From positions 1 through 22,410 of IMG/VR virus record IMGVR_UViG_3300020428_000100: a stretch of 22,410 nt of DNA. One strand, written 5' to 3'. Position numbers and translations under genes: made by a program. Each line of letters opens with the position of its first letter. Positions within the stretch are counted from its first letter, which is position 1. Below the pieces are notes generated by a model. The model saw only the letters and a program-made list of their open reading frames with translations, did not search any database and was not told the DNA's origin. Origin of the DNA: a virus. Positions 11,021 to 22,398 of this stretch are shown in pieces.

Positions 11021-11028
11021 TATTTATA
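11021..11028 (-). promoter_or_regulatory. T4-type late promoter box before gp8
   Basis: The minus strand reads TATAAATA, with exactly 18 nt between the box and the gp8 ATG. The same spacing is found before gp25 and before the OB-fold spike gene. The box lies between inverted AT-rich 6-mers (TATAAT and ATTATA at 11013-11018 and 11035-11040), which may be chance. Confidence 0.75.
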
Positions 11029-11038
11029 CTGGTAATTA

Positions 11039-11046
11039 TATTTATA
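11039..11046 (-). promoter_or_regulatory. Second late promoter box before gp8
   Basis: A second exact TATAAATA on the minus strand lies 18 bases from the first, giving a tandem pair. It is 36 nt ahead of the gp8 ATG, so it could give a longer leader or be a duplicate with little use. Only the exact match and the intergenic location support it. Confidence 0.5.
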
Positions 11047-18058: not shown

Positions 18059-18322
18059 CTAATCCCCTATTTTAACATTACTATCACTACTTGCACTATG
18101 TCCACATGATGCAAGATCTCCAGAATTACAAACTTTAACACCACCAATTTTAACCTTCATACCAGAACCAGCAGAAATTGTTGCTGAATCATGTGGTGAC
18201 AAACCATGAGAAGCAACTGAATCACCATTTACTATAATTAATTTTCCATTCGCCTTTACTTTAGTTTGTGATGCACTTAGAGCACCACCAGCTGTATCAT
18301 CTTTTCTACATACACTAGGCAT
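18059..18322 (-). CDS. PAAR-domain spike tip protein
   Basis: The product is 87 residues from the ATG at 18322. An upstream in-frame TTG at 18334 would add four residues, but PAAR proteins usually begin M-P-x-V-x-R-x-x-D, which fits MPSVCRKDD. The protein shows the PAAR pattern of a sharp cone made from short beta repeats: VNGDSVASHG, the tip HG/H pair, GSGMKVKIGG, and a closing CNSGDLASCGH. Candidate zinc ligands are the His and Cys residues of SHG..PH and CGH. Such proteins cap the gp5 or VgrG beta-helix (T4 gp5.4). The gene overlaps the end of the spike gene by 8 bases, consistent with making the two together. Confidence 0.87.
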   Translation of the reverse strand: MPSVCRKDDTAGGALSASQTKVKANGKLIIVNGDSVASHGLSPHDSATISAGSGMKVKIGGVKVCNSGDLASCGHSASSDSNVKIGD

Positions 18323-20084
18323 AATACTGTGCAATCTGTCCTAGTTCAGTTGTTGTTTTTCCATTGTATTGTGTTATCATATCTGATCTATTACCAGACT
18401 CCTTACACCCAAGATGAATCCAAGGCATACCAGAACCAGTAGTTCTATATTGTAGTATGATAGAATCATGTGGTAAGTTTTCTCTAATCCATATTGCAAT
18501 CTCAAAGTATTCTCCTTTACTTGCATCTGCAACTTGTATGTCAACTGCTTCACCTAATGAATGTGCAGAAGATGTGCCAGGCCTTGATTCAAAATATCCC
18601 ATGTTAATTCTTAGTTTAGGATATTCTGCAAGTAATGGATCTAAACAATTAACTGCAAGAACTCTTAATTTATTAATAATTTTTTCTGATTCTTCTTTAC
18701 CCTTGTTTATTTTTTGTCCTACAGGTGGTGCAAGTGTAAGTTTAGAAAGTTTATACTTAGAAGATATGTACATATTGTAATCTATAGATCCATCATCTGG
18801 AAGTATTATCTTAGATGGTTTTACTATTGATGTAACCTTTGCAGCTTCTGTATAAAGTAATTCTGATTGTCCAGTTGAATATCCATGTTCTTTTGGAAAG
18901 TCTGGAACTGCTGGAACTGATATCAATGGTCTTGATGCACTTTCAGAACTATAACTTCCATCAATAGAATTGTAACTATAATCTGAAGATGAAGAAGGTA
19001 ATGCATTTCCAGAAGCAACATCAGTTTTAATATCTGCATCTGATTTTGGAATATCATCTTCACCAAAAACAGATTGTTCATCTGCTAATGCACTTAGGTC
19101 TTTTGCATCAAGCACTGTAGCTTCTAATGGTGCGTCAACTTCTTTACCTTCACTATATAAATTTACACCAGAACTATCTTTATATTTTGTATCTTCTACT
19201 TTTTCTACCTCTAATCTAGTTACATCATCATTTAAATCTATCGAACTACCTTTTAAGTTCATAGCACCACCACCAAGAATGTCAATAGTACTATTTCCAT
19301 TTATCATTATTGAACTTGGAGATTTTATACTAATATATCCATCAGAAGTAATTTTACTTAATCCTTTTATATTGGTAAGGTAATTACCCTCTGCATTAAT
19401 ATTCATATCTGCTTGAGATTGTAATGTCATCTTTGCCACAGACGTTGCAGTTAATTCTTTCTGTGCTGTAAACTCTATAGAGTCATTTGCATAAAATCTC
19501 ATATTCTTACCAGCATGAATATTAATATTCTTACCAGCGTGTAGATCTATATTCTCATCCACTTGTCCTGTTAACGAACCACGCACATACAAATCTGCAT
19601 CACCATCACAATAGACTTCAATATTTCCTCTTACTCTTAACTTTTTATTTTGATGTACAATCTCATAATCATCACCGATAATCTTTGTAACCTTTGTACC
19701 ATCTGGATGTACTTCGTAAAAAGTACCAGACCTATGATATTCATGTATACGTTCATGGCCTGGTGTATCATCAAACTCTACGATATGACCAGACTCCGTT
19801 TCCTTTACATGATTGTATGGATACTTTGACGCATACTGTGTTTCTGGTTCTCCTACCAGATCATCTATTCTTTGTCTTTTAAGATTGACCACAGGGTGCT
19901 GTTTAGTTGCATCATTTACTGCAAGTCTATTTGTATCAACTTCATTTACTCTACGAGGATAGAAAGAACGAGGATCAGCAAAACCATTAAGTGATTGTTG
20001 AGTAGAAACTTTTAGATTTACTTCTGTACCTTTTGCTGGTGGTTTATCAAATTTAATTTTTCTATCTTCTATTTCATAGGCCAT
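18315..20084 (-). CDS. gp5: gp5-C-like beta-helix spike protein with C-terminal M15-like domain
   Basis: The product is 589 residues. Residues 86-145 (KYPYNHVKETESGHIVEFDD, then TPGHERIHEYHRSGTFYEV) match the start of the gp5 C-terminal/VgrG spike. Residues 146-290 are short V-x-G-x-x beta-helix repeats (KNINIHAGKN, MNINAEG, SIMINGN, MNLKGSS). Residues 290-440 are a Ser/Asp-rich linker. The C-terminal ~130 residues resemble an M15 peptidase: GYFESRPG, then SSAHSLGEAVDIQV with H508-x6-D515, and PWIHL with H557, together the three zinc ligands. I do not see an obvious catalytic Glu or Asp near H557. There is no OB-fold, which lies instead in the separate gene just upstream. Compared with T4 gp5, this is a split spike. 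Confidence 0.87.
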   Translation of the reverse strand: MAYEIEDRKIKFDKPPAKGTEVNLKVSTQQSLNGFADPRSFYPRRVNEVDTNRLAVNDATKQHPVVNLKRQRIDDLVGEPETQYASKYPYNHVKETESGHIVEFDDTPGHERIHEYHRSGTFYEVHPDGTKVTKIIGDDYEIVHQNKKLRVRGNIEVYCDGDADLYVRGSLTGQVDENIDLHAGKNINIHAGKNMRFYANDSIEFTAQKELTATSVAKMTLQSQADMNINAEGNYLTNIKGLSKITSDGYISIKSPSSIMINGNSTIDILGGGAMNLKGSSIDLNDDVTRLEVEKVEDTKYKDSSGVNLYSEGKEVDAPLEATVLDAKDLSALADEQSVFGEDDIPKSDADIKTDVASGNALPSSSSDYSYNSIDGSYSSESASRPLISVPAVPDFPKEHGYSTGQSELLYTEAAKVTSIVKPSKIILPDDGSIDYNMYISSKYKLSKLTLAPPVGQKINKGKEESEKIINKLRVLAVNCLDPLLAEYPKLRINMGYFESRPGTSSAHSLGEAVDIQVADASKGEYFEIAIWIRENLPHDSIILQYRTTGSGMPWIHLGCKESGNRSDMITQYNGKTTTELGQIAQYYA

Positions 20085-21148
20085 TAAGTTGATACTCCTC
20101 TTTCATTCGCATACTTAGTAACAGACTTTTTTCCTATCCTTACAGCCTTTGGTGGATACTTAGGAAACTCTGATGGATAGAAGTGACCCATATCATTTGG
20201 AATACCATTTTGCATTCTAGCAGATTTAAATGCAGAACGAGCTCTTCCTGTATAGTTACTATCTCCTTTTTTTCCATCATCATAAGAACCATCTGCTCTG
20301 AATATTGTTATATCAACTGCACACGCAAAGTTGTGCCAAGAGAAACCAGGCTTTGCGGCTTTATTCTTTCTGGTGGCGAGCCATTTGTTATACAATTCTT
20401 GTTGCTGTGAATTAGTTCTATAACTAGAACCTATACTCATATCCCAACCACTATTGGATTGAAGAAAATTATTAATTCCTTGTGCAATCCTATCTCTTAC
20501 AAATGGTATTAATCTATTTAAAGCATTAGCAGTTTTACTACCCCTATTAGATAATGGAAAGTCATTTTTAGTATATACTCTTGCACCAGAAAATTCTGCT
20601 GTAGAAACTTCTGTATTCATAGATGAAGTTGCTGGTGCATTTGTTGCTTTATCTGGTATACCATCTTTAGTTACTAGAACTGTAGAGTCTTGTGAACTTG
20701 CTGGTAAATCAAACTCTGATGTAACCCCATCTGCAATAACTGTGTTTTCACTTATCTTGCCAGGTTCACGATTTTGATCTTGTGAATAATCATAAGGAGC
20801 TCCACCTTGAGGAGCACCATTAGGCCCTATGTAGCCAGGTATCGTTCCAAACACCATAGGTTCTTGTAGAAAGTCTGGATCTCTCCAGAAACCAATTACC
20901 CATGTTCCTTCTATTGGGCCTGTCGGAGAAGTTCCTACACCACCAGAGGAAGCAGATGTACAAGGTTGAATACAAAACGCCCAAGGCAAATCTATTGTCG
21001 CAAGTTTTGTTTTATCTGATGTATGATAACCAAATACTCTAACTCGTACTCTTCCTAGTGACATAGGGTCTGTACGATCTTCTACAACACCAACCCACCA
21101 GAGAAATCCATCTCTACCAGAAAAATATGATAGTCTTTGTGTTTGCAT
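20084..21148 (-). CDS. gp5: gp5-N-like OB-fold protein with M15-type peptidase domain
   Basis: The product is 354 residues. Residues 12-105 (GFLWWVGVVEDRTDPMSLGR and VRVRVFGYHT, then LPWAFCIQPC, GTWVIGFWRDPD, EPMVFGTIPG) form the OB-fold typical of gp5 N-termini. A variable segment (106-200) follows. The rest is a LAS/M15-type peptidase: SSYRTNSQQQELY (R244), then WHNFACAVDI with H272-x6-D279, and ND-x-GHFYP with D319 and H322. This supplies all three zinc ligands and a D-x-x-H catalytic acid as in Ply500-type L-Ala-D-Glu peptidases. It thus replaces the lysozyme of T4 gp5 with a peptidoglycan peptidase used in puncturing the cell wall. The start ATG directly follows the T-tract of a terminator; the AAAGGGA ahead of it is the only ribosome binding site. 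Confidence 0.88.
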   Translation of the reverse strand: MQTQRLSYFSGRDGFLWWVGVVEDRTDPMSLGRVRVRVFGYHTSDKTKLATIDLPWAFCIQPCTSASSGGVGTSPTGPIEGTWVIGFWRDPDFLQEPMVFGTIPGYIGPNGAPQGGAPYDYSQDQNREPGKISENTVIADGVTSEFDLPASSQDSTVLVTKDGIPDKATNAPATSSMNTEVSTAEFSGARVYTKNDFPLSNRGSKTANALNRLIPFVRDRIAQGINNFLQSNSGWDMSIGSSYRTNSQQQELYNKWLATRKNKAAKPGFSWHNFACAVDITIFRADGSYDDGKKGDSNYTGRARSAFKSARMQNGIPNDMGHFYPSEFPKYPPKAVRIGKKSVTKYANERGVST

Positions 21149-21185
21149 AAAAAAATCCCTTTGAAGTATTTATACTGCAAAGGGA
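21149..21185 (-). terminator. Rho-independent terminator directly ahead of the spike gene
   Basis: On the minus strand an 8-bp perfect stem (TCCCTTTG with CAAAGGGA), one mismatch, and a further 4-bp stem (AGTA with TACT) enclose a TAAA loop. Seven T residues follow immediately and end at the ATG of the OB-fold gene. It would end transcripts coming from the four-gene cassette. The 3' arm contains the ribosome binding site of the next gene, and the loop contains a late promoter box. Confidence 0.85.
21167..21174 (-). promoter_or_regulatory. T4-type late promoter box inside the terminator hairpin
   Basis: The minus strand reads TATAAATA across the loop and inner stem of the terminator, with 18 nt to the spike-gene ATG. 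A start 5-7 nt further on would fall at the beginning of the 3' arm. The late transcript would then lack the 5' arm and would not fold into the terminator. Confidence 0.8.
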
Positions 21186-21214: not shown

Positions 21215-21493
21215 TTAATCACATTGTAGTTTGTTTACAATTGTACCATTGGAATTATATTTTTGAGAAATCCAACACATTCTTTCATGTTTGTTGGTAG
21301 CCCAATTTGCAATCACATTCTTGTTGATATTTGTATTACCAACATTTACTTGATTACCATTAAAGAGTTGATTTAATAACAACCCAATCATTTGTTGTTT
21401 AAGTGCATCTTGATTATTCATTCGCAATTCAAATGCATTGACAGGATGACAACCTATAGTTACTAAAGTTATAATAATTAATATTTTTTTCAT
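21215..21493 (-). CDS. Small exported protein of unknown function
   Basis: The product is 92 residues. Residues 1-20 form a good signal peptide: KK at 2-3, a hydrophobic core ILIIITLVTIG, and a VNA/F cleavage site. The mature part (about 72 residues) has an amphipathic helix with MIGLLLNQLF, an Asn-rich stretch NVGNTNINKNV, and two cysteines (C73 and C91) that could form a disulphide. C15 lies in a poor lipobox (TIGC), so a lipoprotein is possible but less likely. I do not recognise a family. It is the last gene of the sigma70-driven cassette. The start overlaps the upstream stop (ATGA). Candidate roles are envelope modification or superinfection exclusion, both speculative. Confidence 0.7.
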   Translation of the reverse strand: MKKILIIITLVTIGCHPVNAFELRMNNQDALKQQMIGLLLNQLFNGNQVNVGNTNINKNVIANWATNKHERMCWISQKYNSNGTIVNKLQCD

Positions 21494-21723
21494 GGGTTTA
21501 ATATCTCCACATCTGATTTATCAACCCACACAGTAATTAATTTCTCATGTAAGTCTTTAATTTTAAACATATCATGTTCGTCATTTTTAGAAAGAATAAT
21601 ACCCTCTCTGGTTAATACCTTATGACTACGAATGGGTAAGTCTGCAAGACTATATTGACCACCAGGCCTATCCCATGCATCTAAAGGAAATTTATACTTA
21701 TATTTTACAAAATACTTTTTCAT
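21490..21723 (-). CDS. Small hypothetical protein of the promoter-led cassette
   Basis: The product is 77 residues, basic, and begins MKKYFVKYKYKFPLDAWDRP. The pattern suggests a small beta-rich fold with an acidic end (VWVDKSDVEILNP). There is no signal peptide, Cys pair or known motif, and I do not recognise it. It is read from an ATG that shares a base with the upstream stop (TAATG), with AGGA about 8 nt upstream, and its own stop overlaps the next start. It was therefore very likely co-translated with its neighbours. Confidence 0.7.
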   Translation of the reverse strand: MKKYFVKYKYKFPLDAWDRPGGQYSLADLPIRSHKVLTREGIILSKNDEHDMFKIKDLHEKLITVWVDKSDVEILNP

Positions 21724-22133
21724 TATATAGTTCCTAAATTCTTTTGCTCTTTGTACGCATCTATTATAATCTTTGTATAGATAGGTTCTAATTCTAAATT
21801 GTAATGATTAAATTCATTATCAGTTATATTATTCCTAGTATAAGGAGCCCAACCAAAGAACTGTCTGAAATGAGATTTTCTATTCATAAGACCATTATTA
21901 AATAAATCGTAGATTAGATTTTGTGCAACTCTAAACTTTTCAAGACACTTGTTAACAGAACGTCCTTGTGGAACTGAGCCTTCACATGGAATAAGATCCG
22001 TTAGTTTTTCGTGAATGTTTTTATAACCTTCATGTAGAGCCCAACTTATTAAAAACAAATCGTCTTGAATATAATAATCATCTGATTCCAAAACACCACC
22101 TATACTTTTATAATATTCTTCATTAAAGGCCAT
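21723..22133 (-). CDS. Conserved hypothetical marine-phage protein
   Basis: The product is 136 residues from the ATG at 22133. A TTG at 22145 is also in frame, but the ATG has a GGAG ribosome binding site 6 nt upstream and forms a TAATG overlap like the other genes in the cassette. The sequence is mostly helical, with LFLISWALHEGYKN, then GRSVNKCLEKFRVAQNLIYD, LFNNGLMNR and HFRQFFGWAP. I recognise this pattern from uncharacterised proteins of T4-like marine phages. No catalytic motif or signal peptide is visible. It is likely a cytoplasmic protein of early or middle infection, given the promoter ahead of the cassette. The function is unknown. Confidence 0.75.
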   Translation of the reverse strand: MAFNEEYYKSIGGVLESDDYYIQDDLFLISWALHEGYKNIHEKLTDLIPCEGSVPQGRSVNKCLEKFRVAQNLIYDLFNNGLMNRKSHFRQFFGWAPYTRNNITDNEFNHYNLELEPIYTKIIIDAYKEQKNLGTI

Positions 22134-22336
22134 TATATACTCCAATCTCTCTTAGACCATATAGGGGCAAAATTACGTCCATAGTCAACATAGACAGTAC
22201 AAGGTTTACCAAGTTTCTTTGCCATCGCCTTACACTTTGCTAAAGTGTCAGATGTAAAAGTAACAAACTTATCGTCATTTAAAAATAAACTAAACTTTGG
22301 GGTTAACTTAACTTTTGGTAATGGTTGTCCAAACAT
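22133..22336 (-). CDS. Small hypothetical protein, first gene of the cassette
   Basis: The product is 67 residues, begins MFGQPLPKVKLTPKF, and is basic. A helix with LAKCKAMAKKLGKPC lies near residues 32-46, followed by TVYVDYG and a Trp-rich end (PIWSKRDWSI). I do not recognise a family. It starts with an AGGA ribosome binding site 9 nt upstream, about 26 nt downstream of the predicted start of a consensus sigma70 promoter, so it leads the transcript. Its stop overlaps the next start (TAATG). Confidence 0.7.
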   Translation of the reverse strand: MFGQPLPKVKLTPKFSLFLNDDKFVTFTSDTLAKCKAMAKKLGKPCTVYVDYGRNFAPIWSKRDWSI

Positions 22337-22369: not shown

Positions 22370-22398
22370 ATTATATACTGATTCGTTTTCTGTGTCAA
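22370..22398 (-). promoter_or_regulatory. Perfect consensus sigma70-type promoter for the small-gene cassette
   Basis: On the minus strand TTGACA (22393-22398) is followed by a 17-base spacer and TATAAT (22370-22375). Both hexamers match the bacterial housekeeping consensus exactly. Transcription should begin near 22362 and run left into the 67-residue protein gene. It is unlike the TATAAATA boxes elsewhere in the window, so host polymerase with its own sigma factor is the likely user. Confidence 0.87.

Follow-up and report, generated by a model that had tools for sequence, protein, structure and literature searches.

How would a phage structural gene be expressed when its only Shine-Dalgarno (SD) sequence forms part of a hairpin that also contains a late promoter box and runs directly into a T-tract? 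The question arises in the window, a 22,410-bp IMG/VR virus fragment from a marine T4-like phage, in which nearly all the larger ORFs lie on the minus strand.

The nested element and its neighbours

On the minus strand, from 21185 to 21149, the 37-nt element reads TCCCTTTG C AGTA TAAA TACT T CAAAGGGA TTTTTTT, followed by the ATG of the spike gene at 21148. The outer stem consists of eight perfect base pairs, in which the 5' arm TCCCTTTG (21185-21178), defined by sequence, fold and its co-change with the other arm across gp5 relatives, pairs with the 3' arm CAAAGGGA (21163-21156), enclosing a single C.T mismatch and an inner stem of 4 bp capped by a TAAA loop. A T4-type late promoter box, TATAAATA (21174-21167, minus strand), extends across the inner stem and loop, the 3' arm holds the only SD of the spike gene (AAGGGA, 21161-21156), and the T7 tract (21155-21149) would serve both as terminator tail and as spacer between SD and AUG. 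An earlier note on this DNA had described the two stems, the T7 adjoining the spike ATG, the late box across the loop and a sole ribosome binding site (AAAGGGA) in the 3' arm, all of which are found exactly so in the sequence.

The gene downstream (20084-21148, minus strand), identified by its ORF and domain matches, encodes a 354-aa spike protein that combines a Gp5 OB domain with a VanY peptidase domain and shares 51% identity with the OB-domain protein that Methylophilales phage Melnitz encodes. As in Melnitz the spike is split between two genes, this one being followed by a second (18315-20084, minus strand) whose product has a weak match to the Gp5 trimerisation domain. Upstream lie four small genes without a match in family searches (21215-22336, minus strand; ORFs 22336-22133, about 22124-21723, 21723-21490 and 21493-21215), presumed to be an early operon, and a perfect sigma-70-type early promoter, TTGACA-17-TATAAT (22370-22398, minus strand), also present in seven relatives. 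In all seven of these close relatives the early promoter stands 989-1240 nt upstream of the element, the intervening length of DNA varies, and the promoter spacer is largely conserved (AAAACGAATCAGT being mostly kept in all). One relative (L001) has two copies of the early promoter about 410 nt apart, resembling a repeated early-promoter cassette. A tRNA gene closely precedes the element in Melnitz and in several other relatives. The fragment itself has no genes for gp33, gp55 or gp45; a near-complete 145-kb relative encodes homologues of all three, the set that supplies late sigma factor, coactivator and clamp, with 74-79% identity to Melnitz. Among the 51 late-like boxes of this relative only the one before gp5 sits inside a G+C stem that has a T-tract. 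Elsewhere in the window two TATAAATA boxes 18 bp apart (11021-11046, minus strand) precede the gene 11002-9443.

A predicted switch between early and late transcription

We consider it likely that these 37 nt act at the operon boundary as an early/late switch, combining a terminator, a mask of the ribosome binding site and a late promoter. Early, polymerase from the upstream promoter would transcribe the small genes, make the hairpin and U7, and mostly stop; in any RNA that reads through, the spike SD would be paired in the hairpin, allowing little spike protein to be made. Late, gp55-directed polymerase would start at the box inside the hairpin, and the resulting RNA, beginning at about 21161, would be without the 5' arm, carry the SD at its extreme 5' end and use the U-tract to space it from the AUG. 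Termination, start site and effect on translation are thus what we infer for the element, and the three parts can be weighed separately.

A role of the hairpin and T7 as an intrinsic terminator is highly probable, as the element joins a G+C-containing stem (8 bp, four G-C pairs) to a run of seven T residues. The hairpin is kept when the minus-strand RNA is folded in a 251-nt context and has a value of -14.2 as a local leader; the plus-strand stretch folds at -14.2 kcal/mol (z -3.1), equalled by one of 200 shuffles, and shuffling of the 5' flank gave as good a stem in 41 of 20,000 trials. A terminator formula scores the fragment's element at 16 and some relatives below 0. The element is absent from the list of a generic terminator scan, probably because such a scan looks for a single continuous stem closed by a loop of 3-8, and here the mismatch breaks the stem. 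Rfam gave no match within the 22,410-bp window, nor did megablast of the region against phage records. A bidirectional terminator was considered and rejected, the plus strand having an A-run in front of the stem in place of a T-run.

The nested TATAAATA box is very probably a late promoter. It stands shortly upstream of a late gene, and gp55, gp33 and gp45 are encoded in the 145-kb relative. T4 late boxes occupy positions -13 to -6 (PMC1524935), a geometry that would place +1 at A21161 (minus strand), the sixth base 3' of the box and the third base of the 3' arm; the earlier note had likewise put the late start at or within this arm. The predicted late RNA begins AAGGGAUUUUUUUAUG, has a leader of 13 nt and is unable to form the hairpin, its fold leaving the SD and AUG region unpaired.

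Masking of the ribosome binding site, as a physical effect, is predicted with equally high confidence. The computed probability that the SD is unpaired is 0.00 in read-through RNA, as expected from the earlier claim that it is hidden in RNA arriving from upstream, and 0.90 in RNA from 21161; across the close group of this element the corresponding values are about 0 and 0.74-0.90. The further claim that late RNA exposes the site holds, by computation, for this group but not for several gp5 relatives, whose late RNA is predicted to re-pair the SD (0.19-0.44 unpaired). An upstream stop codon lies about 29 nt before the stem, from which distance a terminating ribosome should leave the stem unmelted. 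That masking is also a selected function we regard as evenly balanced, since sequence alone cannot separate it from a side effect of having the SD serve as the 3' arm.

Conservation before gp5 and recurrence before gp13

When 7-mers are permuted, loose criteria (stem of at least 6, T-rich tail) yield 0-4 such nestings per genome, so a single genome is suggestive only; it is conservation with covariation that takes the element beyond chance. Relatives were gathered by spike protein similarity, and their leaders were taken only if a T/CATAAATA box stood close to the start codon, which is why this box is present in 38 of 38 distinct gp5 leaders. At the sixth position 3' of the box every one of the 38 has an A. 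Of the 36 leaders scored, 26 have a hairpin around the box that also takes in the SD, with stem sequences that vary among relatives (TCCCTTTG, TCCCTTGT, TCCCCTTT, TCCTCTTT, ACCCCTTTA and others). Among 13 distinct gp5 arm sets, two-sided changes occur in six of nine stem pairs, with a covariation score of 0.412; shuffles give 0.150, none of 500 being as high, and sliding the register abolishes the signal. For this count the arms were cut by hand and attached to a constant box, because a MAFFT alignment of the whole element misplaced the 5' arms. As the SD constrains the 3' arm only and the 5' arm follows it, these changes point to selection on the hairpin.

The T-run accompanies the hairpin. 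The 26 hairpin leaders have a mean of 6.5 T in the eight bases after the SD, and the 10 leaders without a hairpin, which retain late box and SD, have a mean of 4.0 and no T-run longer than three. In some relatives the T-run is interrupted, as in TTACTTT. The distribution of the nested state on the protein tree requires at least two to three changes, and loss of hairpin together with T-run represents about two to three evolutionary events only, so that, the rows also being related, p-values for this association are not to be taken at face value. Two relatives (L062 and L080) have a terminator-like hairpin ahead of an un-nested late box instead, and another leader (L017) has an SD-covering helix and no T-run. 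In L080 (near 1277) and L078 (near 420), 5 nt separate a TAAATA box from the ATG of the gp5-like gene, so that T4 geometry would give a leaderless late mRNA.

The search that the earlier note had proposed, for a late box in an inverted repeat followed by a T-tract before gp5, thus finds the nesting in many relatives with compensatory changes, among them the isolate Melnitz, whose element lies at 76,321-76,359. By the criteria used, no nested element is present in P-HM2, HTVC008M, Mosig or AG-345-L05, and two weak matches in T4 were rejected as they are without the TATAAATA box. Judged by its sequence the element is real and conserved, and its putative roles as terminator and late promoter are supported by the comparison.

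The arrangement is also seen outside gp5. A scan of IMG/VR for CCCTT-box-AAGGG-T found 88 stretches, and the same scan with a scrambled first arm found 32, seven of them from this element's group. By our own count, 44 of the 86 retrieved matches lie before gp5 genes and 19 before gp13 neck genes. In some cyanophages the hairpins before gp13 have 10-12 bp and a loop formed by a late-like box (ATAAATA or CTAAATA), followed by T5-6; that of S-PM2 (L524, around 66,777-66,832) has a 12-bp stem and the loop ATAAATA. A TAAATA box within a hairpin, mostly as CTAAATA, is found at 80 IMG/VR gp13 loci (L525-L604; 50 distinct sequences), all retrieved with a single query and closely related among themselves. 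A second box, AATAAATA, lies just upstream of the gp13 hairpin, and both boxes are candidate late promoters. Among eight named cyanophages only Sf-CH1b (L605) has the element at gp13; the other seven have none there, and their gp13 mostly stands directly behind a gene on the same strand. Hairpins of the form CCCCTT...AAGGGG with ATAAATA inside and then T5 occur near the ATG of other genes in L342 (5394-5427) and L333 (9158-9198), and are either additional nested elements or conventional terminators that have A/T loops. There is perhaps an even chance that a compact three-way switch, built on a terminator with the loop as late promoter and the 3' arm as ribosome binding site of the next gene, recurs at operon boundaries before both gp5 and gp13 in marine T4-like phages.

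Selection may have acted on a terminator with a nested late promoter only, the SD lying in the 3' arm for economy and its hiding being unselected because there is little read-through. We think this rather unlikely, though it is the alternative that survives best. Economy suits these compact genomes, hairpin and T-run go together, and cyanophage gp13 keeps both even though its SD-like AAGGGA is about 13 nt from the ATG. Against it, the mirror orientation, with purines in the 5' arm and the box inside, occurs in 22 stretches, all of them lacking an ORF start within 20 nt, compared with the 88 that bear the SD; this ties the 3' arm to the ribosome site, and does not imply that hiding it is of benefit. 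It is improbable that the hairpin instead serves the ribosome binding site and nested late promoter with no meaningful termination, the T-run being an A/T-rich spacer. T4 gene e does work in this way with no T-tract, and the T-runs of some relatives are interrupted, but runs longer than three occur solely alongside the hairpin, some un-nested relatives have a separate terminator at the equivalent place, and what lies upstream is an early operon or a tRNA gene. That a late promoter and an inverted repeat overlap by chance, as the loose nestings of permuted boxes and the one nested box of the 145-kb relative might suggest, is extremely improbable, as it is already contradicted by compensatory changes across lineages and is opposed by the flank shuffles (41 of 20,000) and by recurrence at gp13 in other phages.

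Implications and comparison with known systems

If the element is indeed the early/late switch we favour, phages of streamlined marine bacteria would pack three functions into 37 nt, i.e. ending the early operon, guarding against early structural protein and starting late transcription, and almost every base would be doubly employed. A specific prediction follows, that about 6-12 nt separate an RNA 3' end from an RNA 5' end, which is testable in the cultured phage Melnitz. It would also be a warning for annotation, as terminator and late-promoter predictions may coincide at one site.

Marine myoviruses have T4-type late promoters, NATAAATA in S-PM2 (PMC2984593) and also in Melnitz (PMC9004378), and the likeness to the present element extends to the same box, a position upstream of structural genes, and phages with gp55, gp33 and gp45. 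In their accessible parts both accounts (PMC2984593, PMC9004378) treat promoters and terminators separately and nesting is unmentioned. The literature searched, in which subscription journals are thinly covered, gave no description of a combined late promoter and terminator. The PeSL (promoter-early stem-loop) cassettes of T4-like phages, which are described as pairing terminators with early promoters (PMC4503421), are likewise compact intergenic cassettes of stem-loop terminator and promoter, and the varying length of DNA between early promoter and hairpin among our relatives is PeSL-like. However, the promoter coupled to the present stem-loop is a late one lying within it, and the early promoter is about 1.2 kb upstream, so the element is not a PeSL.

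The closest parallel is in T4 itself, where the early RNAs of e, soc, 49 and I-TevI hide the ribosome binding site in a hairpin, and that of gene e and I-TevI is freed in late RNA (PMC3014915). In the leader of gene e (lysozyme), as here, the helix that hides the ribosome binding site has the late promoter in its 5' part, and late RNA escapes that helix; for the present element the SD is likewise predicted to be paired in RNA initiated upstream and the predicted late RNA is without the 5' arm. Sequestration of a ribosome binding site with a nested late promoter is therefore already known. The e hairpin, however, is followed by GGAGGTATTATG and no T-tract, whereas this element has T7, stands where an early operon ends and precedes a structural gene. 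What is new is the addition of a probable intrinsic terminator, whose T-tract doubles as the spacer between SD and AUG.
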